Below, one piece after another: positions 30,883 through 51,641 of a DNA stretch of 64,000 nt. Below the pieces are notes generated by a model that was given only the letters and a program-made list of their open reading frames with translations, was not told the DNA's origin and made no database searches. The translations under genes were made by a program, and so were the position numbers. Source of the stretch: Psychromonas algarum (GTDB lineage Bacteria > Pseudomonadota > Gammaproteobacteria > Enterobacterales > Psychromonadaceae); the NCBI RefSeq assembly GCF_004376845.1, contig NZ_SNUW01000002.1, positions 372,001 to 436,000 of the forward strand. Direction: 5' to 3'. Position 1 is the stretch's first letter. Each line of letters starts with the position of its first letter.

Positions 30883-30951
30883 ATGGAATTTATATATATG
30901 TCGCAGTGTAAATGTACTGCAACACAACCGTTTACAAAGGAACAATCATGA
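30883..30951 (+). other. Leader ORF / hairpin before MFS copy 1
   Basis: A 22-codon frame starts at ATG 30883 and its TGA overlaps the transporter ATG (ATGA). It contains a hairpin GCAGT ... ACTGC. The second leader has the same frame, but most substitutions change amino acids, so it may be a structured leader rather than a peptide gene. No good ribosome-binding site precedes it. Confidence 0.35.
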
Positions 30952-32885: not shown

Positions 32886-32951
32886 ATGGAATTTAGATAT
32901 ATGTCGCAGTGTAATTGCACTGAAACACAACCGTTTACAAAGGTACAATAA
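32886..32951 (+). other. Leader ORF / hairpin before MFS copy 2
   Basis: A 21-codon frame whose TAA overlaps the transporter start (TAATG). The hairpin here is CAGTG-taattg-CACTG, a pair longer than in copy 1 where the matching base differs. The stem is kept while the peptide changes. Confidence 0.35.
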
Positions 32952-34246
32952 TGAAAATTAAAAACTTAAGATGGTGGATTGTTGCTTTAATCGCATTGGC
33001 TACTGTTATTAACTACATTGATCGTTCTGCACTTAGCGTATTATGGCCTGATATAGCAAAAGATCTTTTCCCTAACGAAACAGCATTTGAAAGAAAACAA
33101 ATTTATGCAAATATCTCAATTGTATTTATCTTCTCGTATGCCTTTGGCCAGGCTATGTTTGGAAAAATATTTGACTGGGTTGGCAGCCGTTTAGGTTTTG
33201 TATTGTCAATGGGATTCTGGGCGCTAGGAACCGCGGCCCATGCTTTCGCACAAGGCGTACTTAGCTTTAGTATTTTCCGTTCTATTATTGGTTTTGCTGA
33301 AGCGGGAAATTGGCCTGGTGCTGCAAAAAGTAATGCTGATTGGTTTCCAACTAAAGAACGCGCATTAGCACAAGGTGTCTTCAATTCAGGTGCCGCCATT
33401 GGTGGTATTATCGCTATTCCATTAGTTGCATTACTCACTACTTTCTTTAGCTGGAGAATGGTTTTTGTAGCCATTGGTGCAGCTGGATTTTTATGGTTAA
33501 TTCCTTGGCTAATTCTTGTAAAAGCGCCAGCTAAAACACATCCTTGGCTCACTGATGAAGAGCGTGAATACATCTTAACTGGTCAACGTACTTCTGATGT
33601 TGAAACAAACGAAGAAGATCAATATAACCCGACCACAAAAGAATTATTAACACGTAAAGAAAGTTGGGGTGTCATTATCGCTTCTGCAGCGATCGATCCT
33701 ATCTGGTGGTTATTTGTATTTTGGATCCCAATTTATCTTAATGAAGTTTATCATATGGATGTTAAATCCATTGGTATTTACGGTTGGGTACCTTACGTAG
33801 GTGCAATGCTTGGAGCTTGGTTCGGTGGTTTACTTGCACAAAACCGTTTAAAAGCTGGCTGGAATATTAATAAAGCGCGTAAATTAACTATTTCTCTAGG
33901 CTGTATGATCATGCTACCTGCTTTATTGGCAATGGCAAACCCAGGCGGTCCAACAGGTGCAGTTATTATTATGGCGATTATTTTGTTTGGTTTCCAAACG
34001 GCTATTGGTAACGTTCAAACATTACCAAGTGACTTATATGGTAAAAAAGCGGTTGGCACACTTTCAGGTTTATCAGGAATGGCTGCGAAGTTAGGTGCAT
34101 TAGGTTTAACGGCTTTAGTACCTATTTTAACTGCTGATGGTAACTATGCTCCAGCATTTATTATTGGTGCATCTTTAGCAATTACTGCGATGGCAGCAGT
34201 TTGGATTTTAATTCCAAAAATCGAACCATTAGAAAGTAAAAATTAA
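32951..34246 (+). CDS. MFS transporter, hexuronate (ACS) type, copy 2
   Basis: A 431-aa paralogue of the preceding transporter, by eye well above 80% identical, with the same length and start. It shows the WWIVALIALATVINYIDR opening, the conserved NWPGAAKSNADWFPTKERAL block of the ACS group, and a polar central loop (TDEEREYILTGQRTSDVET). AAAGG lies six bases before the ATG. Its retention as an intact frame after duplication suggests dosage or a slightly different substrate. Substrate assignment (uronate or oligoalginate) rests on neighbours only. Confidence 0.85.
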   Translation: MKIKNLRWWIVALIALATVINYIDRSALSVLWPDIAKDLFPNETAFERKQIYANISIVFIFSYAFGQAMFGKIFDWVGSRLGFVLSMGFWALGTAAHAFAQGVLSFSIFRSIIGFAEAGNWPGAAKSNADWFPTKERALAQGVFNSGAAIGGIIAIPLVALLTTFFSWRMVFVAIGAAGFLWLIPWLILVKAPAKTHPWLTDEEREYILTGQRTSDVETNEEDQYNPTTKELLTRKESWGVIIASAAIDPIWWLFVFWIPIYLNEVYHMDVKSIGIYGWVPYVGAMLGAWFGGLLAQNRLKAGWNINKARKLTISLGCMIMLPALLAMANPGGPTGAVIIMAIILFGFQTAIGNVQTLPSDLYGKKAVGTLSGLSGMAAKLGALGLTALVPILTADGNYAPAFIIGASLAITAMAAVWILIPKIEPLESKN

Positions 34247-36160: not shown

Positions 36161-36772
36161 TTACTTAAGCATACCTTGTGTTTCAATGAATTCTATAATG
36201 TCAGCTAAACCTTGTTGAGTTTTCATGTTACTGAAAACAAAAGGTTTAACACCACGCATTTTTTTTGTATCTCTATCCATCACGTCTAATGACGCTCCAA
36301 CTAAATCCGCGACATCTATTTTATTAATGATTAACAGATCTGACTTAGTAATACCCGGACCACCTTTACGAGGGATTTTATCACCCGCAGAGACATCAAT
36401 TACATATAATGTCAAATCAGATAGCTCAGGGCTAAATGTCGCACTAAGATTATCCCCCCCACTTTCTACTAATACAAAATCTAAGTCTGGATGGCGTTCA
36501 TGTAATTCATCAATCGCCGCTAAATTCATTGAAGCATCTTCACGAATAGCCGTATGCGGACATCCTCCAGTTTCAACCCCCATAATACGATCACCACTAA
36601 GCGCATCATTACGCGTTAAAAACTGTGCATCTTCATAGGTATAAATATCATTTGTGACCACTGCCATAGAATACTTATTGCGTAGTGCTAAACATAATTG
36701 GCTTAATAAAGCCGTTTTACCTGATCCAACTGGACCACCGACACCGATACGTAAAAGTTGTTTTTTTCTCAT
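36161..36772 (-). CDS. ureG: Urease accessory GTPase UreG
   Basis: UreG is a SIMIBI-class GTPase that delivers nickel to apo-urease in the UreDFG complex. The 203-aa product has the P-loop [13 protein letters not shown] near residue 11, the CPH nickel motif in [13 protein letters not shown], and NKID guanine specificity ([14 protein letters not shown]). Length is standard. It lies 47 bp after ureF. Confidence 0.96.
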
Positions 36773-36819
36773 TCTGTTTCTCTTATATTTCTAAAATAAT
36801 TAGTATGCGCTTAATCAGT

Positions 36820-37515
36820 TTATGATCGGAATAAACGTGTGTACTGCGTTTCATGCCAAGCACTCGCCATTGCAAGTCGAGGTAGACTCGCTCCAATATC
36901 ATCCAGTGCAATACTATTTGCTGTATTAATTGCCTCAGCGACTTTCTCACCTAATTCAAACAATAAGTTTTGTGATTGTGTTTGTCCTAAGGGAACTAGC
37001 TTAGTTGCTGCCGCTACTTGGTTATCTAAATAGGTCCAACAATAACCACTTTGTGCAGAAATTAAATCTAACTTACAAAGGTAAGCTGCAATCGCAAAAA
37101 TACTCACAAAGCTACTATCTGATTCATTAAATAAGTCGTTATAAGGTTCGCTATCTACCCCATCGAGTTTCTTTAATAAACGAATTAACGCTTTCCCCAT
37201 TGCAACATCAGCAAGACGTAATTCACTACTTTCTCGGCAGGCGATGAGTTGTTGGTTATAAAGTTTAAAGCGAGCAAAATCATTGACCTCTAATGCTTCA
37301 TACAAATGTTTTAATAGTGCTAAGTCAGTATGAGCAATAGATTCATTAAGATTCATTTCAACCCAATCAAAAGTGCTTTTTTGACAGCTTACCCAACCCA
37401 TTTCCGTTGCATACTCCAGCCCCTGTGAAAATGAAAATCCTCCTACAGGGAGGTTTGCACTACAGAGTTGCAATAAGCGATTAAGCTTAAGTGGATCAGC
37501 AATATTAATGTTCAT
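36820..37515 (-). CDS. ureF: Urease accessory protein UreF
   Basis: UreF couples UreD to UreG during nickel insertion. The product from ATG 37515 is 231 aa with the family opening [20 protein letters not shown] followed by EYA. It is all-helical with the conserved C-terminal [20 protein letters not shown]. The chosen start overlaps the ureE stop by 11 bases; an earlier in-frame codon at 37578 would read through the ureE histidine tail. Confidence 0.92.
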
Positions 37516-37972
37516 GACTATGCGAGTGCCCATGTGAATGACCAGAGCCTTTTGCATAAGCCCCATTTTCAGGTTCAAATATTGCAGGTGTTTTATTGAT
37601 ACTTAAACCGTATTTTTCAGCTAATTCTTCTAATACATGATCGGGTTTAAAACGCACCCATAATTCACCCACTTGTAATGTAGTATGGCGGTTTCCTAAA
37701 TGATAACAAACCTTACTAAAAGCCAACCAATCTGTACCAACTGCAGTTGAAACATCTTCAGCTAGTCCTTTCACTTCAACCAATAAACCACATTCTGTTT
37801 TTAAGATTTCACCCACTAATAGCGGATGTCCACGTTCAACAAAAATACCGATATCAGCACCTTTATCCGTCACGCCTTTGATACGTGATTTTTTACGCGT
37901 ATCGTGATCTAATGTGATCGAATCATTAATCTCATCATGTGTGTGATCCAACCTTTCAAATACTTGTAACAT
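37505..37972 (-). CDS. ureE: Urease accessory metallochaperone UreE
   Basis: UreE binds nickel and hands it to UreG. The 155-aa product has the peptide-binding N domain, the metal-site segment [12 protein letters not shown] in the C domain, and a histidine-rich tail ([12 protein letters not shown]) as in Klebsiella UreE. It overlaps ureF and lies 14 bp after ureC. Confidence 0.94.
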
Positions 37973-37986
37973 TATTTTTTCCTAAC

Positions 37987-39690
37987 CTAAAAGAGACAAT
38001 AGCGTTGAGCTAACGGAAGCTCTGTTGCAGGTTCACAAGTTAATAACTCACCATTAGCTCGCACTTCATAAGTTTGCGGATCCACTTCGATATTAGGCAT
38101 CCAATCATTATGGATCATGTCTTTTTTGCCTACATTACGAGTGTTTTTACACACACCAACTAAGCGCGTCATGCCTGCCACTTCTGGTACATTTTTATCT
38201 ACCGCTGCTTGCGATAAGAAGGTCATTGACGTTTGAGCAGCCGCAGAGCCGTGAGAACCAAACATAGGACGATAATAAACAGGCTGTGGCGTTGGGATTG
38301 AGGCATTAGCATCCCCCATTGGCGCAGCAGCAATAAAACCAGACTTTAAAATCATTGATGGTTTAATACCAAAGAAAGCCGGTTTCCATAATACTAAATC
38401 TGCTAATTTTCCAACTTCAATTGACCCTACTTCATGGCTGATACCATGACTAATCGCAGGATTAATTGTGTATTTAGCAATATAACGCTTCGCTCGGAAG
38501 TTATCGTTACGCTCAGTATCTGGTGCTAACGGGCCACGTTGTTGTTTCATTTTATGAGCCGTTTGCCAAGTACGAGTGATCATTTCACCAACACGTCCCA
38601 TCGCTTGAGAATCCGATGAGATCATACTGATCGCCCCTAAGTCATGCATGATATCTTCTGCAGCAATACTTTCTTTACGAATACGCGAATCAGCAAAAGC
38701 AATATCTTCTGGAATAGATGGATTTAAATGATGGCAAACCATTAACATATCTAAATGCTCATCAATGGTATTCACCGTATACGGACGTGTTGGATTAGTT
38801 GATGACGGTAATACATTTGGCTCACCACAAGCGCGGATAATATCAGGCGAATGGCCGCCTCCAGCACCTTCCGTATGGTAAGTATGGATTGTACGACCTT
38901 TAAATGCGCCTAATGTATCTTCTAAAAATCCAGATTCATTTAACGTATCTGTATGGATTGCCACTTGTACATCATATCGATCAGCAACCGATAAACAGTT
39001 ATCGATAGCGGCTGGCGTTGTCCCCCAGTCTTCATGTAGTTTTAAACCACAAACACCCGCTTCAATTTGCTCTTCAATAGCTTTTGGTAAGCTCACATTG
39101 CCTTTACCTAAAAAACCAAAATTCATGGCAAAGTCATTGGTTGCTTGTAACATTTTATGGATATTCCAAGGCCCAGGTGTACAAGTAGTTGCTTTCGTTC
39201 CGGTTGCAGGGCCAGTACCACCACCGATCATGGTAGTAACACCTGACATTTGTGCTTCTTCAATTTGCTGTGGACAAATAAAATGAATATGTGCGTCTAT
39301 ACCACCAGCAGTCAATATTTGCCCTTCACCTGCAATGACTTCGGTACCAGCACCGATTTCAATATCGATATTGTCTTGGATATCAGGATTACCAGCTTTA
39401 CCGATAATCGCAATACGTCCATCTTTAATACCGACATCTGCTTTAACAATACCCCAATGATCTAGAATTAAAGCGTTAGTGATAACCAGATCAACGGTTT
39501 CTAAACAAGAAGCTTGGCTTTGCCCCATGCCATCTCGAATAACTTTACCGCCACCAAAAGTAACTTCTTCACCGTATTCAGTTGCATCTTTTTCAACTTC
39601 AATCCATAGATCCGTATCGCCTAAACGAACACGGTCACCAACGGTTGGACCAAACATATGTGCGTAAGAATGTTTATCAATCGTTGCCAT
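37987..39690 (-). CDS. ureC: Urease alpha subunit
   Basis: The catalytic subunit of nickel urease (urea to ammonia and carbamate). At 567 aa its active-site residues fall at the Klebsiella numbering: His134 and His136 (HIHF), the carbamylated Lys217 (GLKLHEDWG), His219, His246, His272, Cys319-His320 on the mobile flap (VCHH) and Asp360. It is therefore predicted fully active. ureA, ureB and ureC are separate genes, the usual bacterial arrangement. It lies two bases after ureB. Confidence 0.98.
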
Positions 39691-39692
39691 GA

Positions 39693-40034
39693 TTATTTAT
39701 CTCCCTCTAAGCTACTTGTCGTCTCGTTTTGAAGGTCACCTTGAATATCACCACGAAAGCCAAATACACGGCGATGTCCACGGTAAGGGATAAGTGTCAC
39801 TTCTCGCTTTTGTCCTGGTTCAAAACGAACCGCTGTACTTGAGGTAATATCTAAACGATAACCTTTGGTTATTTCACGATCAAAAATCAACGCACTATTT
39901 ACTTCATAAAAATGATAATGAGAGCCAATTTGAATTGGTCTATCACCTGAATTTGCAACAGTGACTTTTAATTGTTCACGACCAACATTTAATTTTCGGT
40001 CACCGCTATCCGTTTTTATTTCACCAGGGATCAT
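39693..40034 (-). CDS. ureB: Urease beta subunit
   Basis: The structural beta subunit (113 aa) starts [20 protein letters not shown] and keeps the conserved [19 protein letters not shown] segment, [18 protein letters not shown] and the [10 protein letters not shown] end. It has slightly more C-terminal residues than Klebsiella UreB (106). It is coupled with ureC two bases downstream. Confidence 0.96.
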
Positions 40035-40045
40035 CAGTTACTCCA

Positions 40046-40348
40046 TTAAATAATTGGGTTATGAACAGTCACTAATTTAGTGCCATCGGGGAAAGTAGCT
40101 TCAACTTGTACTTCTGGAATTAATTCCGCAATGCCGTCCATTACTTGGTCTCGTGTTAATAAGGTACGACCATAATCCATCATTTCAGCAACAGTTTTAC
40201 CATCGCGAGCGCCTTCCATAATTTCCATTGATATATAAGCCATCGCTTCAGGATAATTTAGTTTTACACCACGCTTTAAACGACGTTCAGCTAATAACGC
40301 GGCAGTAAAAATCAGTAATTTATCTTTTTCTCTTGGTAATAAGTCCAT
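40046..40348 (-). CDS. ureA: Urease gamma subunit
   Basis: The structural gamma subunit. From ATG 40348 the product is 100 aa, the exact family length, starting [18 protein letters not shown]. Conserved parts are [20 protein letters not shown] and the C-terminal [20 protein letters not shown] followed by PI. An upstream in-frame codon at 40384 would add 12 residues foreign to the family. Confidence 0.96.
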
Positions 40349-40430
40349 AACATTCTCTTCTATGTATGAAAAATTCAAAGGCATTAGTCAGTAATAAATC
40401 AGCTAATAAACCCCAATAATATTTTATTCT

Positions 40431-41348
40431 TTATGTATGCCAAACTCTTGGTTGCACTGCGACTTTGTCTATTAATATCGGCCTCAATATTTCCCATAAA
40501 CTAATAAATAGTTGTTTGCACTCTTGTGCATGTGCCCCTAGATAGCGGGTCACTAATAACCCATCAATATCAGTAATACTGATATTTTTCTGTGCGCCCT
40601 GCTCTATTATTTTTTCACGTAATGTAGAAACTAATTCAGCTCGTTGACTGCTGCTTATGAGTTTTTCTGGCACGAGGGCTAAAAAAGTAGCAAAGACACT
40701 ATTATTCGCGAGTCCAGCGGGGTGGGTTAATAAACTGTTTGCAGGCGATAACGCAATACGGTCATGATAAATTAATTTACCATCACAAAAGAGGCGATTT
40801 AATTGACAAAATTTTCCTTCAATAAAAGGCTCGTCTGAATCAGGTAAACCTAAACAAGTGATGTCCCATCCGAGATAAACAGCGCTGCTAGTTAATTCGA
40901 TATCGACAGTATTAAAACCATCAGCTCCTTCATAAACAATGGTTTCTTGTGGAAAATTTTCACACTTAGCGTTGCCTTCAAGTACTAATTTAGTGATTTG
41001 CGCTTGCTTAGATTCACCAATATCTAAATTGGTTCGAGCACGATAAAATCGTCCTGCACCGGGAGTGGTAAATAATAAATGAGCATCTTCTTTTACCGCA
41101 ACACTGACACGAAGCTCATCGCCCGAAACAATACCTGCAGGAGGGTGCAAAAGATAAATATGCGCGCAATCTCGCCCTTCTGGATAAAATGTTTTTTGAA
41201 CGGAAAGTGGACCTTTGCGTTGTGTGCGAGTGAGTTGGGTGCCTACGGGAGTATTACTGAATTCTAGAAACAAATGTGCAAGCCACTGGTTTTTAAGTGG
41301 CTTGTTAAATATTGAAGTTGTTCTGGATGTGCTTTCTGGGACTGTCAT
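40431..41348 (-). CDS. ureD: Urease accessory protein UreD (UreH)
   Basis: UreD is the scaffold that binds apo-urease and forms the channel for nickel with UreF and UreG. The 305-aa product has the family blocks GPLSVQKTFYPEGRDCAHIY, HPPAGIVSGDELRV and TTPGAGRFYRAR. It is first in ureDABCEFG, 147 bp downstream of urtE. The gap carries no obvious terminator, so the urt and ure genes may be read together. Confidence 0.94.
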   Translation of the reverse strand: MTVPESTSRTTSIFNKPLKNQWLAHLFLEFSNTPVGTQLTRTQRKGPLSVQKTFYPEGRDCAHIYLLHPPAGIVSGDELRVSVAVKEDAHLLFTTPGAGRFYRARTNLDIGESKQAQITKLVLEGNAKCENFPQETIVYEGADGFNTVDIELTSSAVYLGWDITCLGLPDSDEPFIEGKFCQLNRLFCDGKLIYHDRIALSPANSLLTHPAGLANNSVFATFLALVPEKLISSSQRAELVSTLREKIIEQGAQKNISITDIDGLLVTRYLGAHAQECKQLFISLWEILRPILIDKVAVQPRVWHT

Positions 41349-41495
41349 TCTTACCCTAATGTTAAGTATCTATTTAGCATCTCTTAATGTTTTATATTAA
41401 ATATTATCGAACCTTAATGCTATGGACTGAATCATTTACTCTTCGTTTATTATCGAGAAATAGATGTAGATGGCGAAGACCATAGCACAACAGGA

Positions 41496-42191
41496 TTAAA
41501 CAGCTAAATACTTACTAACCAATTCATCATCAAGATCACCCATTGGACCAGACGCAATCACTTGGCCTTTTTCCATAATATGAAAATTCTCACCAACGGC
41601 ACGTGCAAAGGGTAATTTTTGCTCAACCAGAATAATAGTCATGCCCTCTTCTTTGTTTAGTTTTAATAATACATCTCGAATCAACTGCACGATATTAGGT
41701 TGAATACCTTCATTGGGTTCATCTAGAATCAAAATATCAGGGTTCAAAACCAAAGCACGAGCGATGGCTAATTGCTGCTGCTGCCCACCCGATAAATCAC
41801 CACCACGACGATGTAGCATCTCTTTCAACACAGGAAAAAGTTTATAAATATGATGAGGGATAGTTTTACTTTTTTGTCTTGAACAATTCAGACTGATTTT
41901 TAAATTTTCTTCAACTGTCAATTGCGGGAAAATGTGACGCCCTTGAGGAACATATCCCACCCCAATTTCAGGACGTTTTTCAACACTACTTTTACTCATG
42001 TCGACATCGTTAATGGTTAGACTACCTGAACTGATCGGCAATAGACCCATAATAGTTTTTAATAGTGTCGTTTTACCGACACCATTGCGGCCCATAATAC
42101 AGGTACGTGAGCCCTTTTCTATTTTTAGGTCAAGATCCCAAAGAATTTGAGTGCCGCCATACTTTTGATTTACTTGCTTTAACTCAATCAT
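41496..42191 (-). CDS. urtE: Urea ABC transporter ATP-binding protein UrtE
   Basis: One of two ATPases of the Urt urea importer (LivF-type). The 231-aa product has Walker A GRNGVGKTTLLKT, the GRHIFPQLTVEENL Q-loop region, signature LSGGQQQQLAIARAL and Walker B ILILDEP. Located two bases after urtD and last in the urtABCDE order, it partners UrtD below the UrtBC channel. Confidence 0.95.
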   Translation of the reverse strand: MIELKQVNQKYGGTQILWDLDLKIEKGSRTCIMGRNGVGKTTLLKTIMGLLPISSGSLTINDVDMSKSSVEKRPEIGVGYVPQGRHIFPQLTVEENLKISLNCSRQKSKTIPHHIYKLFPVLKEMLHRRGGDLSGGQQQQLAIARALVLNPDILILDEPNEGIQPNIVQLIRDVLLKLNKEEGMTIILVEQKLPFARAVGENFHIMEKGQVIASGPMGDLDDELVSKYLAV

Positions 42192-42193
42192 GA

Positions 42194-43000
42194 TTAGTGC
42201 TCCTCACCTAAATAAACTTCACGTACATCTTTATTGGCTTGCACTTCATCCATCGAACCTTCTGCTAATACTGTACCTTGATGTAATACCGTCACCTTAC
42301 GCGCAATCGAGCGAACAAAGGCCATGTCATGTTCAACCACAACCACTGAATGCTTACCTGCTAATGAGGTTAACAATTCAGCAGTACGCTCTGTTTCTTG
42401 TGTTGTCATGCCAGTTACCGGTTCATCAACTAACAATAAACGCGGCTCAGCGGCTAATAACATACCAATTTCTAACCACTGTTTTTGACCGTGAGATAAA
42501 CGTCCAGCAGGATAATGTTGTTCAGCAGTTAAACCGATAGTTGTTAATACTTCATCAATTTTGTCTTTTTGCTCGCCACTTAGTTTATGAAATAACGAAG
42601 TCCAAATACCTTTGTCACCCGATAGGCTTAGCTCAATATTTTCAAATACGGTTAATGCTTCAAAAACGGTTGGTTTTTGGAATTTACGCCCAATACCTGC
42701 TCGTGCAATTTCAGATTCATCGAGTTCTAATAAATCAATTTGCTGACCAAAGCTGACTTTACCAGTATCAGGTCTGGTTTTACCTGTGATCACATCCATT
42801 AATGTGGTTTTACCGGCACCATTTGCACCGATTAAACAGCGTAATTCACCATCACCGATATATAAGTTAAGGTCATTCAATGCTTTGAAACCATCGAAAC
42901 TCACACTGACATCTTCTACGTATAAAATCATGCCGTGCCTAGTGTCAGGCTTTAGATTTTCAGCCGATGAAAGCGGTGAACCATTTTTATCTACAATCAT
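42194..43000 (-). CDS. urtD: Urea ABC transporter ATP-binding protein UrtD
   Basis: LivG-type ATPase of the Urt importer. In the 268-aa product the Walker A is GANGAGKTTLMDV, the signature region LSHGQKQWLEIGMLL (the usual UrtD variation on LSGGQ) and the Walker B LLLVDEPVTGMTTQE. An N-terminal extension of about 25 residues precedes the first strand. The ATG overlaps the urtC stop. Confidence 0.95.
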   Translation of the reverse strand: MIVDKNGSPLSSAENLKPDTRHGMILYVEDVSVSFDGFKALNDLNLYIGDGELRCLIGANGAGKTTLMDVITGKTRPDTGKVSFGQQIDLLELDESEIARAGIGRKFQKPTVFEALTVFENIELSLSGDKGIWTSLFHKLSGEQKDKIDEVLTTIGLTAEQHYPAGRLSHGQKQWLEIGMLLAAEPRLLLVDEPVTGMTTQETERTAELLTSLAGKHSVVVVEHDMAFVRSIARKVTVLHQGTVLAEGSMDEVQANKDVREVYLGEEH

Positions 43001-44172
43001 TATTTATTCTCCGCAGTTGTTGCTATCGCAGCTTGATCTTCATTAACTTGATCTTTTTTAGCTGTAGATGGTGGATCAACTTTATCCATTAAGTTAGATA
43101 CCAAACCAGCTAGTCCTTTAGGTAATAGCAAGGTAACAAGAACAAATAATCCACCTAATCCAAATAACCAAGCTTCAGGCATAATGGCTGTAAAACGTGT
43201 TTTAGCGTAACTCACCACAATCGCACCAATTAATGCGCCGTATAATGTGCCACGACCACCAATAGCGACCCAAATTACAATTTCAATTGAGTTTAATGGA
43301 GAGAACTCACCTGGATTAATAATACCCACTTGTGGTACATATAATGCCCCAGCTACACCCGCTAACATGGCTGATACTACGAAGATCCATACTTTATAAT
43401 GTTGTGGTTTATAGCCTACAAATCGCACTCGGTTTTCAGCATCACGAATGGCCGTAACAACACGTCCCATTTTAGAGTTCATAATAAAGTGACTAATTGC
43501 ATAACCAATCGCCAACATTATTGAGGTTGCAACAAATAAAGCTAACTTAGTATCTGGTGACTGTAATGAGAATCCAAAGATCTCTTTAAAGTCCGTTAAA
43601 CCATTATTACCACCAAAGCCCATTTCATTACGGAAGAATGCTAATAACAGAGCGTAAGTCATTGCTTGCGTCATGATTGATAAATAAACACCACTCACAC
43701 GAGAACGGAACGCTAACGTACCAAAGAGGTAAGCTAATAAACCAGGACCTGCAAACACTAATAAAATCATCACTAATGCATTATCAGAACCCGCCCAATA
43801 CCAAGGTAAATCAGTCCAGTTTAAGAACACCATAAAATCAGGTAATTCAGCATTACCATAAACACCTCGGTCCCCAATTTGGCGCATCAAATACATGCCC
43901 ATTGCGTAACCACCAAGTGCAAAGAATGCACCATGACCTAAGCTCAAAATACCGCAGTATCCCCAAACTAGATCAACCGCTAAAGCAAGTAATGCATAGC
44001 AAAGGTATTTACCTAATAAGCTAACCGTATAATCACTAACATATAACATTGATCCTTCAGCAAAAGCTAAGTTACAAACAGTAACGTAAAGCGTTGATAT
44101 AAATAGAATTGCAATAACACAATGCAAACTACTCATTTTTTTCACAAGAGGTGAATTAAGTAAATTTTTCAT
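43000..44172 (-). CDS. urtC: Urea ABC transporter permease UrtC
   Basis: LivM-type membrane subunit of 390 aa with about ten helices. The family block GVAGALYVPQVGIINPGEFS and the EAA-like VIWVAIGGRGTLYGALIGAI are clear. The C-terminal tail (about 25 residues, KVDPPSTAKKDQVNEDQAA) is polar and variable. It overlaps urtB and urtD by single bases (TAATG), so translation of the membrane and ATPase genes is coupled. Confidence 0.95.
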   Translation of the reverse strand: MKNLLNSPLVKKMSSLHCVIAILFISTLYVTVCNLAFAEGSMLYVSDYTVSLLGKYLCYALLALAVDLVWGYCGILSLGHGAFFALGGYAMGMYLMRQIGDRGVYGNAELPDFMVFLNWTDLPWYWAGSDNALVMILLVFAGPGLLAYLFGTLAFRSRVSGVYLSIMTQAMTYALLLAFFRNEMGFGGNNGLTDFKEIFGFSLQSPDTKLALFVATSIMLAIGYAISHFIMNSKMGRVVTAIRDAENRVRFVGYKPQHYKVWIFVVSAMLAGVAGALYVPQVGIINPGEFSPLNSIEIVIWVAIGGRGTLYGALIGAIVVSYAKTRFTAIMPEAWLFGLGGLFVLVTLLLPKGLAGLVSNLMDKVDPPSTAKKDQVNEDQAAIATTAENK

Positions 44173-45794
44173 TATTCTGCTGATCTCCCTTTTTGCGGAA
44201 ATAATCCCTTAGGTCGTTTTTGGATAAACAACACTAAACTTACTAATACAATAATATTGGCTAATACAGGCCCCATTGACGGTTCTAATAATTTGTTGAA
44301 CGTCCCCATAGTCATTGCAGCAACTAAGGTTCCCCATAAATTACCTACACCACCAAAGACCACAACAAGGAATGAGTCGATGATATAAGCTTGTCCTAAG
44401 TTAGGCCCTACGTTAGTTAACTGACTTAATGCAACACCAGCAACACCCGCAATACCAGAACCTAGACCAAAGGTGATCGCATCTACCCATGAACTTTTAA
44501 TACTCAGTGCTCTTGCCATATCACGGTTTTGTGAAACAGCACGAACATGTAAACCTAACGATGATTTTTTAAGGATCATTAACAAGGTAAAGAACACACC
44601 CAATGCAAATAAGATGATGTATAAACGGTTATAAGTAAGTGACAACATTGGATTGATTTCTAATGAACCACTCATCCATTGTGGCGCTTCAACTTGACGA
44701 TTTAATGGAGAGAAAACCGTTCTTACAAGTTGTTGTAGAATTAAGCTGATACCAAAGGTTGCTAATAGCGTTTCCAGAGGGCGACCTTTTAAGAAGCGGA
44801 TAACACCACGTTCAATTAATACACCGACAAAACCAGAAACAAGGAAAGCTGCAGGTACTGCCATTAATAATGAGTATTCAATTAAATTAGGGAAGGTTTG
44901 TTGGATAACGTAAGTGGTATAAGCACCTAACATCATCATTTCACCATGCGCCATATTAATAACGCCCATTACACCAAAGGTAATAGTTAAACCAATTGCA
45001 GCCAGTAATAAAACAGATCCTAGGCTTAAACCAAAGAATAAGTTCTCAACCATGCCATAAACACTGGCCGTCTGTTCTATATCATCAATTGCTTTAGTTA
45101 ATACCTTTCTTAATTCCGCTGTTTCAGGTTGTTCTGATAATGAAGAAAGTTGTTTTACTAATGCGTTTTTAACTGTTGGTTCTAAACGGCCAGACAATTG
45201 TTGAGCGGCTGTTAATTTTTCAGCTTTATTGCCCGTTTCTAATTGGTCAACCAATAGGATAACTGACATTAATTCACGTGCGTCTTCGTCTTTCTCTTCT
45301 TTAATCAGTTTGTTAACAGAGGCAATACCTATTTCATTAGGATTATTTAATAATTGATTTAATGCTGTAATACGAATACTCGCATCGTCACTACGCAGAT
45401 CTAAGTTCGCCAATATATCGCGAATTTTTCCACGTAAACGGTTATTTGTTCTTACTTTTTTAATAGCCGATTTATCCACTGCTGGCAGAGTTTCCGCAGT
45501 AAATACATCAGTTAATTCATATTGGTCTTGCTTATTTCGATAAGCAGAAACAACTTGTTTATTTGACTTTAAGTAATATAAATCGCCAGTCAAAAGAGGA
45601 TCTAAAATGGCACGTGTTTGAGGTGCAGATGTCGCGACAATCTTATCGATTAGTGGCGCCATTCTATTTAATTTAGTGGTTGGTAGTTGTTCGATAAGTG
45701 CAGGAAGTGCAGATTTATCTTGTATTTCACTAACAGCTGCTGAGGCGTTGAATGACATTACATAGAGAAACAATAGGGGAAGTAGACGCAACAT
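44172..45794 (-). CDS. urtB: Urea ABC transporter permease UrtB
   Basis: LivH-type permease with the long N-terminal periplasmic extension typical of UrtB. The 540-aa product has a signal peptide (MLRLLPLLFLYVMSFNASA), a helical extension to about residue 245, then the membrane domain starting VENLFFGLSLGSVLLLAAIG. Other blocks are GVINMAHGEMMMLGAYTTYV and VVVFGGVGNLWGTLVAA. It lies 87 bp after urtA, across a hairpin. Confidence 0.95.
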   Translation of the reverse strand: MLRLLPLLFLYVMSFNASAAVSEIQDKSALPALIEQLPTTKLNRMAPLIDKIVATSAPQTRAILDPLLTGDLYYLKSNKQVVSAYRNKQDQYELTDVFTAETLPAVDKSAIKKVRTNNRLRGKIRDILANLDLRSDDASIRITALNQLLNNPNEIGIASVNKLIKEEKDEDARELMSVILLVDQLETGNKAEKLTAAQQLSGRLEPTVKNALVKQLSSLSEQPETAELRKVLTKAIDDIEQTASVYGMVENLFFGLSLGSVLLLAAIGLTITFGVMGVINMAHGEMMMLGAYTTYVIQQTFPNLIEYSLLMAVPAAFLVSGFVGVLIERGVIRFLKGRPLETLLATFGISLILQQLVRTVFSPLNRQVEAPQWMSGSLEINPMLSLTYNRLYIILFALGVFFTLLMILKKSSLGLHVRAVSQNRDMARALSIKSSWVDAITFGLGSGIAGVAGVALSQLTNVGPNLGQAYIIDSFLVVVFGGVGNLWGTLVAAMTMGTFNKLLEPSMGPVLANIIVLVSLVLFIQKRPKGLFPQKGRSAE

Positions 45795-45831
45795 GGGCTG
45801 TTCCTTAGTTTTAATTTATTCAAATTCATAA

Positions 45832-45858
45832 AATGGGAGGTAACTATCCCCTCCCATT
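45832..45858 (-). terminator. Hairpin between urtA and urtB
   Basis: Nine-bp arms AATGGGAGG / CCTCCCATT. On the minus strand it is followed by TTTATG, a poor T run, so it probably acts as a partial terminator or 3' stabiliser that keeps urtA mRNA in excess of the permease genes, a common arrangement for binding-protein genes. Confidence 0.6.
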
Positions 45859-45881
45859 AGGTGTTTATTTAGATTTTATGA

Positions 45882-47165
45882 TTAGAATTTTTGACCAGAA
45901 CATTTCGCAGTTGTTACATCGAAGTTGCCACAGCTAATTGGGGCAGTCCAATCTGATACTAGGTTTTTCGAACTAGGTAGGAAGTCAGACCATGCATCAC
46001 CGATAACTGTATCAGGTGTTTCCCATACCACTTCAAATTGACCATCTTCTTGAATTTCACCAATTAATACTGGCTTAGATAGATGGTGGTTTGAGTTCAT
46101 CACTGCAATGCCACCAGTTAAGTTAGGCACAGCAATACCGATCATTGCTTGTTCAACCGCATCAACATCTGTAGTCCCCGCTTTCTCAACAGCTTTTACC
46201 CACATTTTAAAACCAAGGTAAGTTGCTTCCATTGGGTCATTTGTTACACGTTTGTCGTTACCAATGTATTTTTTCCATTGTGCAATAAAGGCTTTGTTTT
46301 CTTTTGTATCAACACTTTGGAAGTAGTTCCACGCAGCTAAATGGCCAACAAGTGGTTTAGCATCAAAACCAGATAATTCTTCTTCACCTACAGAGAATGC
46401 AATAACAGGAATATCTTCAGCAGAAATACCTTGGTTACCTAATTCTTTATAGAATGGAATATTTGCATCACCATTTACTGTTGAAATTACAGCTGTTTGT
46501 TTACCTTCAGAACCAAAGCGTTTTACTTCAGCAACAATGTTCTGCCAATCTGAGTGACCAAATGGCGTGTAATTAATCATGATGTCTTCTTTTTTAACAC
46601 CTTTAGACATCAAATAAGCTTCTAAAATTTTGTTCGTTGTACGTGGGTAAACATAATCGGTACCTAATAAAACAAAACGTTCCGCACCGATATCATCCAT
46701 CAAATAATCAACTGCTGGGATAGCTTGTTGGTTTGGCGCAGCCCCTGTGTAGAATACGTTTCTAGATGATTCTTCACCTTCATATTGAACAGGGTAAAAC
46801 ATTAAACCGTTCAACTCTTCTAAAACAGGTAAAACCGATTTACGAGAAACTGATGTCCAACCACCAAAAATAACATCTACTTTATCTTTTGCTAATAATT
46901 CACGGCCTTTTTCTGCAAATAAAGGCCAGTTTGATGCTGGGTCAACCACAACAGCTTCTAGCTTTCTACCTAATACACCACCTTTAGCATTTTGATCTTC
47001 TATCATCATTAACACTGTATCTTTTAGTGTTGTTTCACTAATCGCCATAGTGCCTGATAAAGAATGTAAAACACCGACTTTAATATTATCAGCAGCGTAA
47101 GCAAAATTAGTCATTAAGCTCGTTGCAACGATCGAGCTTGCAACAATCAGTTTTTTTAATTTCAT
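45882..47165 (-). CDS. urtA: Urea-binding periplasmic protein UrtA
   Basis: The binding protein of the high-affinity urea importer (LivK/AmiC fold). The 427-aa product has a signal peptide (MKLKKLIVASSIVATSLMTN ... YAA), then IKVGVLHSLSGTMAISETTL and VFGGWTSVSRKSVLPVLEEL. It also shows the UrtA-typical GLMFYPVQYEGEESSRNVFY and the C-terminal pair CGNFDVTTAKC. The first gene of urtABCDE, it is divergent from the permease-kinase gene across 230 bp. Confidence 0.95.
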   Translation of the reverse strand: MKLKKLIVASSIVATSLMTNFAYAADNIKVGVLHSLSGTMAISETTLKDTVLMMIEDQNAKGGVLGRKLEAVVVDPASNWPLFAEKGRELLAKDKVDVIFGGWTSVSRKSVLPVLEELNGLMFYPVQYEGEESSRNVFYTGAAPNQQAIPAVDYLMDDIGAERFVLLGTDYVYPRTTNKILEAYLMSKGVKKEDIMINYTPFGHSDWQNIVAEVKRFGSEGKQTAVISTVNGDANIPFYKELGNQGISAEDIPVIAFSVGEEELSGFDAKPLVGHLAAWNYFQSVDTKENKAFIAQWKKYIGNDKRVTNDPMEATYLGFKMWVKAVEKAGTTDVDAVEQAMIGIAVPNLTGGIAVMNSNHHLSKPVLIGEIQEDGQFEVVWETPDTVIGDAWSDFLPSSKNLVSDWTAPISCGNFDVTTAKCSGQKF

Positions 47166-47395
47166 CTGTAATTCCTTTTATTTATCATCTATGTATTAGA
47201 AAATTTATAATATGAAGACCCTAGCAACGGCCTATTTCGAGTAGGGTTAGTATCTAGGAATTACAGCAAGCATTAAATGCGCAAAAGCACGCAACGACCT
47301 ACGCATAAATGCGCATATCATGCTCAATCACTTTGCAGTAAACTTGCTGAGCTACAAGCTCAAGGTTGAGCCTCTAACCAAATAAACGAATACAC
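47166..47395. promoter_or_regulatory. Divergent urtA / permease-kinase control region
   Basis: 230 bp containing two perfect dyads: CGCAT-aa-ATGCG at 47302-47313 and GCTCAA-gg-TTGAGC near 47368-47381. A related half-site cluster (ATGCGCAAAAGCACGCA) lies at 47277-47293, and GAGCT-aca-AGCTC near 47359. The AGGAATT ribosome-binding region of urtA is at its left edge. The dyads are candidate sites for the adjacent LuxR-type regulator or for a global nitrogen regulator. Confidence 0.5.
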
Positions 47396-50300
47396 ATGCA
47401 GTCAAATCAGAAAATAATTAAAACTCGTCGCACCTATAACAAACTCGTTGCTAACGAGATGATGGAAGATTTTGCATTACGTTTTACCGCAAAGCGGGCA
47501 AGGAAATGGTCATTAAGCCGCATTGCTATGACCGCATTAGGTATTGTTTCGTTTCTGGTATTAGAAGCAATCGGAGGTGCGATCACCATACATTATGGTT
47601 TTGAGAATGCAGCTTGGGCTATTTTAGCGGTCACGCTCATTGTTTTTTTTACTGGATTACCCATCAGCTATTATGCCGCCAAATATGGTGTGGATATTGA
47701 CTTGCTAAGCCGAGGCGCAGGGTTTGGTTACATTGGCTCTAGCATCGCCTCTCTTGTATATGCATCCTTTACATTTATCTTTTTTGCGCTTGAAGCTGCT
47801 GTCATGGCCATGGCGCTACAAATGCTTTTAGGTATGCCCTTACCCATAGGCTATATCGTCAGTACTTTACTGGTGATCCCATTAGTAACACATGGCATCA
47901 CCTACATCAGTCGCTTTCAAGCTTGGACATCTCCAATTTGGGTCGTACTGCAATTATTACCGCTATTTTTTGTATTCACTCATATAGATACCCCTTTACA
48001 GCTTGACGGATGGGTTGATTTTAATGGGGAGGCGGGTGAGGCAGGAGCCACCTTTAACTTATTATTATTTGGTGGCGCATCCGCTGTTTTATTAGCATTA
48101 GTTGCTCAAATTGGTGAACAGGTAGACTTTTTACGTTTCTTACCAGAAAAACCCAAAACAAAAGCATGGCGTTGGTGGTTGGCTTTAATTGCAGGCGGCC
48201 CTGGTTGGATCATCTTTGGCGCATTAAAATTATTGCTTGGTTCATTTCTCGCTTACTTCGCATTAACCCAAGGAATTGCACCGCATTTAGCAAGTGACCC
48301 TTCACATATGTATCAACTTGCTTATGGTTATGTTTTTAATGATCCGCGCTTGGTCATTTTTGTTACTTGTACTTTTGTCATTATTTCTCAATTAAAGATT
48401 AATGTGGCAAATGCTTATGCAGGTTCACTTGCTTGGTCTAACTTTTTCTCTCGTATTACCCATAATCACCCTGGGCGTGTTGTCTGGATGGTTTTTAATG
48501 TAGCTATTGCATTATTATTAATGGAATTAGGCATTTACCAAACGATTGCAAGCATGCTCTCTGTTTATTCAGTGTTAGTACTCGCTTGGTTAAGTTCCGT
48601 TGTTGCCGATCTTGTGATCAATAAACCGTTAGGCATCAGCCCAAAACATATCGAATTTAAACGCTCTCATCTCTACGATATTAACCCTGTTGGTGTTGGC
48701 TCAATGTTGATTGCATCAGTAGCTGGATTTGCAGGTCACATGGGAGTATTTGGTGAAACAGGCGAAGCGCTCGCTTCATTTATAGCTTGTTTCTTACCTT
48801 TTATCACAGTCCCCTTTATTGGTTGCTTAACAAAGGGAAAATATTATCTAGTTGATACACAACAAGAACAAATTAAAACCTTCACCCAATGCCATATTTG
48901 TGAAAATAGCTTTGATCATCAAGACATGACCTTCTGCCCTGCTTACGGCAAAGCAATCTGTTCATTATGCTGTAGTTTAGATGTTCGTTGTGCCGACCAA
49001 TGTCGACCCGATGCAACCTTATCTCAGCAATCTCATAACTTTTTCACTCGCTTTATTAAAGATGAAGTCTTTAAAATGTTTACCACTCCCTTAATGCAAT
49101 TTATCGCGCTTACATTAGGGTTAAGTCTTATCGGTGCCGGTATTTTATTTTTAGTACATTTACAGGTTCCATTAGAAAATGCAGAAGTAAAGCAAGTTTT
49201 TGCCAGTACCCTGATAAAGATATTTTTCTTATTGATGATCATTATAGGGGTTGTCAGCTGGTTATTTATTCTCGCTCGCAATGGTAATCAAACCGCTTTA
49301 AAAGAATTACGTTCACAAACTAAAGCACTGGCGAAAGAGATTGATGCTCACAAACAAACCTCTGTAGCCTTACAAAGTGCCAAGAATATAGCAGAATCCG
49401 CCAATGAAGCTAAAAGCCGTTATCTAGCAGCATTAAGCCATGAATTACGTACCCCATTAAACGTTTTATTAGGTTATGCGCAACTCTTAATGCGCGATCA
49501 AGTTTTACCTCCGAAACAACGTGAAACCATTGCAATTATTAGACGTAATGGTGAGCACTTAGCGGATCTTATTGAAAGTTTATTAGAAGTATCAAAGATT
49601 GAAGCAGGCAAGGTAACGTTACAACGTGATGAATTTAATTTAAAAGCGATTCTGCAACAATTAGTGGATATGTTTCAGATGCAAGCTAGTAAAAAAGGCA
49701 TTAAATTTTATTATGAAGCGAGCTCTAACTTACCTGAATATGTTGCAACAGATAAACAGCGTTTTAGACAAATCCTAATTAACCTTATTTCCAATGCCAT
49801 TAAATATACTGAACAAGGCTCAGTTACCTTTAAAATTACCTATCGCAGTGAAGTTGCTAACTTTAGCATTATTGATACAGGGGTCGGTATTGCAAAAACA
49901 AATCAAGATCTAATCTTTAAACCTTTTGAACAAATTCGTAATGCTCATACTCAATCTATTGGTGGAACAGGTTTGGGATTAACGATTTCACGCTCTCTAG
50001 CAGAGTTAATGGGTGGCGAAATAAATTTAACCAGCAAAGTAGGCCAAGGCTCTACTTTCAACTTCCGCCTCATGTTATTTAAATTACACAAAGATCCTAA
50101 AGAACCAGAGTTAAATAAATCAGAAGCCATAGGTTATAACGGTGATCAGCAAACTATTTTAGTCGTTGACGACAATATGAATCAACGAGAGTTAATATTT
50201 AATTTATTAGCACCAATCGGCTTTAATGTATTACTCGCAGAAGATGCACAACAAGGGTTTATCAAACTACAAGAAAACGATATCCACCTTATTTTAATGG

Positions 50301-50761
50301 ATGTCAGAATGCCAACAGTAAATGGTTGGGAAATGGTAAAAAGCTTACGAGAACAACATTACCAAATGCCTGTATTGATGGTTTCTGCTAATGCTCGTGA
50401 TGCAGAATACAATTTACAAGCTGAAGGCTACCACAATGGTTATATTGCAAAGCCGGTTAATTTAGATGCTTTATTAGGCAAAATAGCACAATTATTAAAT
50501 TTACAATGGCAATATAAAAGTACTGATAACACACAAAAAACAATATCTGAACCTAATAAACCACTTGCTACAAGTGAACAATACCAAGCATTAATAGCAT
50601 TAGCTGAAATTGGTTACCTATCTGGTTTTAAAGAAAAATTTACAGAAATAGAATCTGAATATCGTTATCCTGAAGATAGTGCATCACAAATACTTGAGTA
50701 CGTTGAAGTGTGTAACTTCCCCAAAATTATTGAATATTTAAATGAGTTAAACAATGGATAA
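47396..50761 (+). CDS. Hybrid histidine kinase with an NCS1-type permease sensor domain
   Basis: A 1121-aa fusion. Residues 1 to about 490 form a 12-helix NCS1 (purine/cytosine permease-like) domain (MTALGIVSFLVLEAIGGAIT, LSRGAGFGYIGSS, QLKINVANAYAGSLAWSNFF). Residues 499-540 are a Cys-rich module (CHIC ... FCPAYGKAICSLCC ... C). Two more membrane helices follow (about 560-640), then a short coiled coil. The HisKA domain has SHELRTPLN with His682, and the ATPase has NLISNAIKYT (near 797), DTGVGI and GGTGLGLT. The receiver domain (about 920-1035) has Asp969 in LMDVRMP. Divergence from urtA and the urease genes suggest urea or a related nitrogen compound as ligand (inference). The stop overlaps the response-regulator start by eight bases. 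Confidence 0.88.
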   Translation: MQSNQKIIKTRRTYNKLVANEMMEDFALRFTAKRARKWSLSRIAMTALGIVSFLVLEAIGGAITIHYGFENAAWAILAVTLIVFFTGLPISYYAAKYGVDIDLLSRGAGFGYIGSSIASLVYASFTFIFFALEAAVMAMALQMLLGMPLPIGYIVSTLLVIPLVTHGITYISRFQAWTSPIWVVLQLLPLFFVFTHIDTPLQLDGWVDFNGEAGEAGATFNLLLFGGASAVLLALVAQIGEQVDFLRFLPEKPKTKAWRWWLALIAGGPGWIIFGALKLLLGSFLAYFALTQGIAPHLASDPSHMYQLAYGYVFNDPRLVIFVTCTFVIISQLKINVANAYAGSLAWSNFFSRITHNHPGRVVWMVFNVAIALLLMELGIYQTIASMLSVYSVLVLAWLSSVVADLVINKPLGISPKHIEFKRSHLYDINPVGVGSMLIASVAGFAGHMGVFGETGEALASFIACFLPFITVPFIGCLTKGKYYLVDTQQEQIKTFTQCHICENSFDHQDMTFCPAYGKAICSLCCSLDVRCADQCRPDATLSQQSHNFFTRFIKDEVFKMFTTPLMQFIALTLGLSLIGAGILFLVHLQVPLENAEVKQVFASTLIKIFFLLMIIIGVVSWLFILARNGNQTALKELRSQTKALAKEIDAHKQTSVALQSAKNIAESANEAKSRYLAALSHELRTPLNVLLGYAQLLMRDQVLPPKQRETIAIIRRNGEHLADLIESLLEVSKIEAGKVTLQRDEFNLKAILQQLVDMFQMQASKKGIKFYYEASSNLPEYVATDKQRFRQILINLISNAIKYTEQGSVTFKITYRSEVANFSIIDTGVGIAKTNQDLIFKPFEQIRNAHTQSIGGTGLGLTISRSLAELMGGEINLTSKVGQGSTFNFRLMLFKLHKDPKEPELNKSEAIGYNGDQQTILVVDDNMNQRELIFNLLAPIGFNVLLAEDAQQGFIKLQENDIHLILMDVRMPTVNGWEMVKSLREQHYQMPVLMVSANARDAEYNLQAEGYHNGYIAKPVNLDALLGKIAQLLNLQWQYKSTDNTQKTISEPNKPLATSEQYQALIALAEIGYLSGFKEKFTEIESEYRYPEDSASQILEYVEVCNFPKIIEYLNELNNG

Positions 50762-51641
50762 TAAAAGCAGTGACGTGGTACTAGTAGTTGATGACTCACC
50801 CGAATCATTAGGCATGCTCAATGTCGCCCTAAATAGTCAAGGTTATACGGCATTAGTGGCATTAAGTGGTCAGCAGGCATTGGCCATTGCCGAAAAAGTA
50901 CCGCCCGATGTAGTGTTATTAGACGCCATGATGCCAGAGATGGATGGTTTTGAAACTTGTCGACGTTTAAAAGAAATTCTACCTAATACGCCCATTATTT
51001 TTATGACCGGCTTAACCGACGTAGAAGATATCGTAAAAGGTATTGAAGCAGGCGGTGTTGATTATGTCACTAAACCTATTTCTCCCGATGAAGTGATTGT
51101 GCGTATTAAACGTCATGTTGCAACTGCAAAACTTGCGTTAAGTGCACAAGATGCCTTAGACCACGCAGGTAAAAATGTATTTTGTGTGAGTGAATTAGGA
51201 CGACTCTCTTGGGCAACACCACACGTACATGAATTAATCGAAGAAATATCTGAAGGTAATTACAGTCCTTGGGCAACCTTAGCACCACTCATTGAAAAAT
51301 GGTTATTAACCGATACCAGCAAAGATCTTCATCTGCATTGTTTTTCAGAAACAATGAGCATTGCTTACGAACGACAACAACAGCAAATGCATTTGTTACG
51401 TATCGTACAAGTTAAAGTTGAAAAATCACCTAGCGATTTAAAAGATAAATTACCTATTACCAAGCGCGAATCTGAAGTTTTATATTGGGTTTCTTACGGT
51501 AAAACTAGCTGGGAAATTTCTCAGATTTTAGAAATGAGCCCACGAACAGTAAACAAGCACCTAGAGCAAATTTATAGGAAGCTAGGGGTTGATAATAGAA
51601 CATCGGCGGCAGCGATTGCATTAAGAATTTTAGAGGGGTAG
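50754..51641 (+). CDS. REC-LuxR response regulator paired with the permease-kinase
   Basis: A 295-aa two-domain regulator. The N-terminal receiver has the acidic pair Asp13-Asp14, phosphoacceptor Asp57 (LLDAMMPEMDG) and Lys in VTKPISP. A ~110-residue linker of unknown fold follows, then a LuxR/FixJ-type HTH (about 233-290: TKRESEVLYWVSYGKTSWEI, MSPRTVNKHLEQIYRKLGV). Its ATG overlaps the kinase stop (ATGGATAA), so the two are translated together and almost surely form a phosphorelay. Likely target: the urtA/kinase intergenic region. A terminator follows immediately. Confidence 0.9.
   Translation: MDNKSSDVVLVVDDSPESLGMLNVALNSQGYTALVALSGQQALAIAEKVPPDVVLLDAMMPEMDGFETCRRLKEILPNTPIIFMTGLTDVEDIVKGIEAGGVDYVTKPISPDEVIVRIKRHVATAKLALSAQDALDHAGKNVFCVSELGRLSWATPHVHELIEEISEGNYSPWATLAPLIEKWLLTDTSKDLHLHCFSETMSIAYERQQQQMHLLRIVQVKVEKSPSDLKDKLPITKRESEVLYWVSYGKTSWEISQILEMSPRTVNKHLEQIYRKLGVDNRTSAAAIALRILEG

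Follow-up and report, generated by a model that had tools for sequence, protein, structure and literature searches.

An NCS1-type hybrid kinase as a probable switch for urea and amide assimilation genes in Psychromonas algarum and other Pseudomonadota

Why should a histidine kinase with a permease-like head lie back to back with the genes for urea uptake and urease? The question is raised by a 64,000-nucleotide stretch of the Psychromonas algarum genome (NCBI RefSeq assembly GCF_004376845.1, contig NZ_SNUW01000002.1, positions 372,001 to 436,000; hereafter the window, with positions counted from its first letter). A hybrid histidine kinase gene (47396..50761, plus strand, 1121 amino acids) is followed there by a gene for a REC-LuxR response regulator of the NarL/FixJ type (50754..51641, plus strand, 295 amino acids), and the two open reading frames (ORFs) overlap by 8 bp. 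The cluster urtABCDE-ureDABCEFG (36161-47165, minus strand) diverges from this pair. Because the kinase pair and a common control site recur beside genes for the uptake and breakdown of urea and amides, we propose that the pair is probably a switch for these nitrogen sources. That it regulates the neighboring operon is strongly supported by comparative sequence evidence. To the whole account, in which a receptor of NCS1 fold for urea or a short-chain amide would drive the adjacent operon through the REC-LuxR regulator and an inverted-repeat operator, we assign a probability of roughly 0.68.

The two genes were assigned from their ORFs, Pfam, and fold matches and, for the kinase, from an alignment, an AlphaFold model, and Foldseek. 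The kinase starts with an NCS1-type domain of 12 transmembrane (TM) helices (approximately residues 1 to 486), continues with a Cys-rich module (approximately residues 495 to 540) and two further helices (residues 565 to 639), and ends in a canonical hybrid histidine kinase core, with Pfam matches over cut-off for HisKA (672-738), HATPase_c (786-893), and Response_reg (921-1030). His682 and Asp969 are invariant in all 15 aligned family kinases, and the eight cysteines of the module (499, 502, 514, 522, 525, 526, 532, and 536) are invariant in 70 of 70 family sequences. About 90 residues follow the receiver. An HPt domain in this tail is unlikely, because no His is conserved behind the receiver (after residue 1035, no column holds more than 3 His among 15 sequences), and the kinase is probably not of the TorS-like tripartite type. 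In the regulator, Response_reg (residues 9 to 118) and GerE (residues 235 to 289) are also matched over cut-off, D57 of the receiver is invariant, and the fold matches are led by the FixJ, LiaR, and StyR structures. An insert between the two domains (residues 142 to 219) is predicted to be alpha/beta and looks PAS-like by eye; a separate fold match to it was not obtained. This anatomy, the gene overlap, and the divergence from urtA had all been read from the letters of the sequence in a preliminary description of the locus, and Pfam, the alignment, the model, and the ORF coordinates confirm them.

A kinase pair can be an unrelated neighbor, with no control over the urea genes, and the frequency of kinase-less genomes with urtA would suit such a reading: 56 of the 91 UrtA-bearing genomes in a draw of 394 genomes from the order have no strong kinase match (E 1e-80, a cut of our own). 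The distribution of the kinase itself points the other way. Within the genus, 13 of 24 genomes carry the kinase, and a UrtA match (E 1e-100) is present in exactly those 13 and absent from the other 11. The order draw contains 47 genomes with some kinase match, 36 of them strong; the 11 weaker matches comprise one free-standing permease, one truncated kinase (in genome G138), and nine short matches. Of the 36 strong-match genomes, 34 have the kinase adjoining urtA or a gene like it. In one exception (G039), the kinase is cut by a contig start and UrtA is encoded on another contig beside other genes, and in the other (G392) there is no UrtA match. The enrichment of such kinases near urt genes, proposed as a check in the preliminary description, is therefore strongly positive.

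Across the phylum, the kinase family was found in 51 of 398 Pseudomonadota genomes drawn. Labeled by the genes found in a fetched stretch of up to 20 kb, the 52 kinases of this draw that lie outside the order divide into 36 with amide genes (a UrtA-like ABC transporter and/or a formamidase), 14 with urea genes, and 2 at contig ends; as a raw count, all 50 informative kinases have urea or amide genes in the stretch. Chance as the cause of this neighborhood was rejected on these gene contexts. The neighborhood is also kept in named alpha-, beta-, and gammaproteobacterial loci, and in most loci the gene for a substrate-binding protein is the divergent neighbor of the kinase. Among named relatives (the best 80 loci of at least 585), 58 are of the amide type and 15 of the urea type, 5 are at contig ends, and 2 have neither set of genes. 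The last two, from Marinomonas (L141) and Oceanospirillum (L152), fall inside a urea clade and have urtA and ureC elsewhere in the genome. The ABC genes of the amide clusters share about 35 to 50% identity with the window's urtABCDE. The accompanying enzyme is FmdA formamidase (in L049, for example, 774.5 bits where the cut-off is 500) or an AmiF-like formamidase/amidase. Locus L197, which combines an amide-type transporter with urease, was labeled urea. In L216 and L218, the kinase is shorter and no regulator adjoins it, although FmdA is nearby.

To follow these labels through the family, we placed them on a tree of 125 kinases, left from 145 after removal of near-duplicates; five split, cut, or short kinases (L041, L054, L092, L112, and L136) were dropped, and L056 was left out for want of an N-terminal match. 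The amide/urea label changes 5 times on this tree, compared with a mean of about 31 for shuffled labels (0 of 500 shuffles as low). At least 3 of the changes are forced by starred branches; 37 of the 124 inner branches are open, and L055 sits on a very long branch. Five genomes (G347, G541, G598, G615, and G719) hold one amide-type and one urea-type kinase, each with its own cluster. Overall, the kinase family belongs chiefly to amide systems. The term "urea sensor" is apt for the window locus and, because 36 of the 52 phylum-draw kinases have amide genes, too narrow for the whole family.

Several loci depart from the common layout. The kinase of G138 (L058, 7857-10705) is truncated, without the permease domain and part of the Cys module; its family-type regulator is opposite in orientation, and no UrtA match in the genome reaches the threshold. 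In G223 (L046, 5873-9244), the kinase adjoins urtA and no regulator gene lies beside it. The kinase frames are split in L041, L054, L092, and L112, by sequencing error or decay. A gene of 317 to 381 amino acids stands between the kinase and urtA in L042 (7411-8379), L043, L044, L047, and L048; those of L042 and L048 match porin families and resemble in this the porin FmdC encoded in the fmd cluster. Relatives of the kinase also occur on 505 plasmid records, 338 of them from Klebsiella. The 15 listed are 47.8 to 49.9% identical, and the annotation reads "ATP-binding protein" in 14 of them, with no gene listed in the other. The one Klebsiella plasmid inspected, pKP062-1 (L275, 9001-13243), has a near-consensus operator and, beside the kinase, genes for a family-type regulator, an amide-type ABC transporter, and an AmiF-like formamidase.

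We searched for a shared dyad in the 87 of 125 loci (78 amide, 9 urea) with a short enough divergent region between the kinase and binding-protein genes. The dyad TACG-N8-CGTA is present in 49 of these 87 regions, whereas the highest count for any dyad of equal length across 10 shuffles was 7. The sites take the forms TACGTCA-N2-TGACGTA, TACGCA-N4-TGCGTA, and variants; the quartiles of their start positions are 58 and 98 bp upstream of the start of the binding-protein gene. Inverted repeats of this 7-2-7 spacing are known for NarL-type regulators. A matrix built from the 49 loci was tested on the 122 loci with enough upstream sequence, 73 of which had been held out, with P values taken against resampled sequence. 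Of the held-out loci, 42 match at P ≤ 0.01 and 50 at P ≤ 0.05. When the matrix was made from amide sites alone, 20 of 36 urea loci scored at P ≤ 0.01. Among 40 urtA-type promoters from kinase-less genomes, the full 49-site matrix gives 1 match. Near-perfect operators also precede the distant urtA genes in the genomes of the two unlinked loci (scores 26.7 and 21.0; 0 of 300 shuffles as good), and the urtA of a third genome (G913) has an operator scoring 23.0.

The exact operator TACGTCAWWTGACGYA occurs in 5 of 190 genomes, namely 4 of the 21 with the kinase and 1 of the 169 without it, compared with 1 of 190 for the reversed pattern. Within the four kinase genomes, each such site lies in a urea or amide cluster, for example before the formamidase gene in L170 and before a urtA located 12 kb from the kinase in G525. 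The kinase-less genome, G469 (contig C84, L281), has two exact operator-like sites about 8.4 kb apart, in unrelated genes of a restriction-modification-looking region that has no match to the urea or amide genes of the reference set; these sites reflect either chance or another use.

In the window, the predicted operator TACGCATAAATGCGCA (47300..47315), recognized by the matrix and by its footprint in the genus, lies in the divergent region 81 to 96 bp before the kinase start and 135 to 150 bp before the urtA start. It is one of four sites in the genome that fit TRCGYMNNNNKRCGYA; the reversed control pattern gives two. Both halves of the site are recognizable in 11 of 12 relatives from the genus, while its middle varies; one core base is changed in L020, and L015 is not alignable. 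Mean column identity in the genus alignment is 0.85 over the site and 0.67 elsewhere, and the most conserved 16-base segments overlap the site or its left flank.

Set against this evidence for control are several results that weigh the other way. The match of the window's own operator is modest (score 7.8, P 0.015 to 0.02), and a slightly higher-scoring chance site lies at 43193. Even at P 0.05, 23 of the 73 held-out loci are unmatched, and those tested are akin to the training loci. The unmatched include three loci with urease and no urt genes in the fetched stretch (L135, L157, and L212), as well as L216 and L218, with their short kinases and no adjacent regulator. The distant urtA of G914 (L280) has no operator, and the control promoters are of the urtA type only, with no formamidase promoters of kinase-less genomes among them. 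The window's own operator is thus weaker than the family norm but conserved in the genus. The preliminary claim that the pair controls urtABCDE-ureDABCEFG gains comparative support from context and operator, tempered by the modest site in the window itself. That the kinase is an unrelated neighbor is contradicted, because the control promoters are nearly free of the operator; with a gene context conserved phylum-wide and operators at distant urtA promoters, we regard that idea as scarcely credible.

If the pair controls these genes, what does it sense? We modeled the sensor half of the kinase with AlphaFold from a 70-row alignment (mean predicted local distance difference test score, 86.9). 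Counted by eye, the model has 12 membrane helices, then the small Cys-rich module, and then two long helices directed towards the dimerization helix. TM1 is broken at residues 50 to 53, and TM6 (222-246) is drawn as one unbroken helix. Foldseek ranked CodB (7qoa, TMt 0.76) and then Mhp1 (2jln, TMt 0.67) as the top PDB matches, and NCS1 structures outrank those of the SLC5 type (SiaT and NIS), so that the domain is not of the SLC5 kind. The place of a STAC four-helix domain between permease part and kinase is taken in the model by the Cys module and two helices; no STAC model was searched by name. Sequence comparison is less telling. The Pfam model Transp_cyt_pur (PF02133) is unmatched even at E 10, and NCBIfam codB matches weakly (E 7e−6, residues 24 to 199). 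A PDB sequence search with the N-terminal profile returned nothing, and single-sequence queries returned unrelated chance matches only. The NCS1-type label of the preliminary description is therefore borne out by predicted fold and weak by sequence.

The nearest free-standing permease to the sensor domain in the order draw (L057, 5130-10135) is 27 to 29% identical to it and does pass PF02133. Its neighbors are amide-type genes, encoding a two-domain CN_hydrolase, an AmiC-like binding protein, and an AmiR-like regulator. A close homologue of this permease occurs in L221 (9953-14365), again with a double CN_hydrolase and an AmiC-like gene. These loci possibly represent an uncharacterized amide or nitrile uptake operon.

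The model also bears on the idea that ligand-loaded UrtA, or its amide homologue, touches the kinase from the periplasm and is the actual sensor. The divergence of a binding-protein gene from the kinase in most loci would agree with such contact. Ahead of the Cys module, however, the model has no sizeable soluble domain outside the membrane helices (sidedness being inferred), and the kinase is kept in stretches with urease only and in unlinked loci. We consider a contact of this kind improbable.

The pocket of the domain was mapped onto that of CodB. Since a profile alignment of the two covers residues 31 to 177 only, at low probability, the map rests on ungapped anchors: TM1, TM3, and TM8 were aligned to CodB without gaps, and TM6 was set in register by Asp213/Arg216, at the second-best ungapped offset. 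Binding-site residues of CodB were taken from PMC9379551. CodB Tyr285 is conserved. Phe33 of CodB maps to Phe53 of the kinase, Gln105 to Thr126, Trp108 to Phe129, Phe204 to Leu235, and Asn280 to Asn336; Glu133 was found, by counting by hand, at the position of Mhp1 Gln121. The aromatic sandwich of NCS1 transporters is not preserved: its positions are occupied by Phe129, which is replaced by Leu in one urea clade and one further row, and by residue 235, usually Leu, the latter subject to the second-best register of TM6. The threonines of the CodB Na2 site, Thr278/Thr279, correspond to Lys334/Ile335 in 70 of 70 kinases. With the sandwich residues and the Na2 Ser/Thr pair replaced, the sensor domain is not a plain NCS1 transporter of the kind that CodB and Mhp1, which are free of any kinase, represent.

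These replacements also bear on whether the domain is a true transceptor, that is, a still active urea or amide importer that signals as a sensor of flux. The full 12-helix fold with a break in TM1, as modeled, would be in keeping with transport, and the kinase CbrA both transports histidine and signals, free of sodium and with a Lys in its Na2 site (PMC13022988, PMC7096432). On the other hand, Lys334/Ile335 replace the Na2 threonines throughout, TM6, which is broken in CodB, is one helix in the model, and an ABC importer is already encoded in most clusters. Import by the domain is, in our judgment, unlikely, although it keeps some weight.

The pocket is nearly the same in kinases of both types. 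F53, E57, E133, Q238, E241, K334, and N336 are invariant across 82 amide-type and 40 urea-clade kinases, and T126 is kept in all but one of these 122. Besides Phe129, which is Leu in one urea clade, the exceptions include Ser52, replaced for the most part by Ala in a different urea clade, and Ile239, in whose place some urea-type rows have Thr, Met, or Asn. Columns 234, 301, 325, and 345 were considered as specificity columns that track urea and amide, and were rejected, because random amide clades give at least 4 such columns in 27 of 200 draws. From this near-identity, we propose that the sensor probably recognizes the H2N-C=O group, which urea and amides share, and that gene context sets its use. 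The near-identical pocket fits a common ligand class or, equally, a common product such as ammonium.

A common product is indeed the substance of a further alternative, in which the pair controls the operons but the signal is a shared product or the nitrogen state (ammonium, carbon dioxide or formate, or pH), sensed by the kinase core or the Cys module, and the permease-like domain only modulates. The lack, beyond chance, of any sensor column that follows the urea/amide label suits this alternative and counts against a receptor for the substrates themselves, as do two findings from known systems: the SLC5 domain of CbrA is dispensable for signaling (PMC9100948, PMC7096432), and the fmd cluster of Methylophilus is repressed by ammonia (PMC10781810). 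The Cys module, moreover, is as invariant as the pocket. Used alone as a query, it matched 12 of 185 genomes of the class (13 matches), and all 12 loci fetched through it contain kinases of the permease-headed family. A working binding site is nonetheless argued for by the long-kept pocket residues E133, K334, N336, and E241, and the loss of the nucleobase-stacking residues is consistent with a small, non-aromatic ligand. We hold product sensing to be unlikely.

We favor the account of a two-component system whose usual sensor domain is replaced by a receptor built on the NCS1 transporter fold. The 12-helix domain would bind urea or a short-chain amide, and the signal would run through the cytoplasmic eight-cysteine module and the two extra helices to the HisKA dimer, a route suggested by the architecture in sequence and model. 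The kinase would then alter the phosphorylation of the REC-LuxR regulator, either directly or through its own receiver. As the family-wide promoter motif suggests, the regulator may bind the 7-2-7 inverted repeat of the TACGTCA-N2-TGACGTA type and so switch the adjacent uptake and hydrolysis operon, which would be urtABCDE-ureDABCEFG in the window and a UrtA-like ABC transporter with a formamidase/amidase in most relatives.

How does such a system compare with known ones? UreR of Proteus and relatives is a urea-responsive regulator of urease genes and a soluble AraC-type transcription factor. It shares with the window system, as proposed here, the regulation of urease genes in response to urea but is not a membrane kinase. 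The urease regulators named in the paper titles found have to do with acid, nitric oxide, iron, nickel, and the like. Closer in architecture are CbrA/CbrB, CrbS/CrbR, and RpuS/R, SLC5-STAC systems in which a transporter domain of the LeuT fold is fused to a histidine kinase (PMC9100948, PMC5715377). Two of these kinases, CrbS and RpuS, are hybrids that are paired with LuxR-type regulators; the RpuS/R pair controls a neighboring pyruvate symporter gene, and CrbR works through an imperfect inverted repeat (PMC9100948, PMC5715377). CbrA shares with the window kinase a Lys in the Na2 site, and its transport is sodium-independent (PMC13022988, PMC7096432). Unlike these kinases, which have STAC and PAS domains and serve histidine, acetate, or pyruvate, the window family combines an NCS1-type domain with a Cys module and two helices, goes with amide and urea clusters, and has a different operator. 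KsAmt5 likewise has a transporter domain turned into a receptor for a nitrogen compound on a kinase (PMC5764959, PMC8534201), but with an Amt fold, ammonium as the ligand, and an anammox bacterium as the host.

On the side of the target genes, the Methylophilus fmdCABDEF cluster encodes a formamidase, a porin, and amide/urea ABC uptake and is induced by formamide and urea (PMC10781810). Amide-type kinase loci resemble it in FmdA and UrtA-like ABC genes, whereas the extracts of that paper name a putative positive regulator in the cluster instead of a kinase pair. In Ectopseudomonas guguanensis G3, a second urtABCDE operon (operon III) has a hybrid kinase and a LuxR-family regulator next to it, and the adjoining locus tag is listed as fmdA (PMC13296017). 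The likeness is by description: as far as its extracts go, the account is one of annotation and does not discuss the permease domain, ligand, family, or operator. This annotation was the nearest result of a literature search that covered few subscription papers and returned no NCS1-fused kinase and no two-component system of this kind for urea or amide clusters. The statement in the preliminary description that no urea-sensing system of this form has been named is in line with that search. Transporter-fused kinases are already a known kind (CbrA, CrbS, RpuS, and KsAmt5), and the NCS1-headed family is widespread and testable. More tentatively, at somewhat less than even odds, these kinases may form an undescribed and widespread class of transceptor kinases, with an NCS1 fold stripped of the sodium site and stacking residues, a receptor for the bare carboxamide, and one pocket and operator reused about five times for amide or urea assimilation, also on Klebsiella plasmids.

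The genes that the window pair would control, all on the minus strand, were identified as follows. UrtA (45882..47165; TIGR03407, 575.6 bits against a cut-off of 492.75), UrtB (44172..45794; TIGR03409), and UrtC (43000..44172; TIGR03408) score above their NCBIfam cut-offs, which places the transporter with the Urt urea ABC transporters. urtD (42194..43000; ABC_tran and BCA_ABC_TP_C) and urtE (41496..42191; ABC_tran) were assigned from these domains and from position. There follow ureD (40431..41348; PF01774), ureA (40046..40384) and ureB (39693..40034), both assigned from gene order and sequence, ureC (37987..39690; TIGR01792 over cut-off), ureE (37505..37972; PF05194 and PF02814), ureF (36820..37578; PF01730), and ureG (36161..36772; TIGR00101 over cut-off). 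Elsewhere in the window, two neighboring MFS transporters (30912-32243 and 32951-34246), both matching PF07690 over a similar range, lie upstream of a gene for an alpha/beta hydrolase.

Both in sea water and in soil, urea and small amides serve as sources of nitrogen. If the account is true, the family would provide a membrane sensor specific to urea and amides in the environment, and NCS1 would join the few transporter folds that have been recruited as kinase receptors. The predicted operator makes the regulon testable in many species, and the approximately five switches between amide and urea genes, with a nearly unchanged pocket, would offer a natural experiment on how the specificity of signaling is set.

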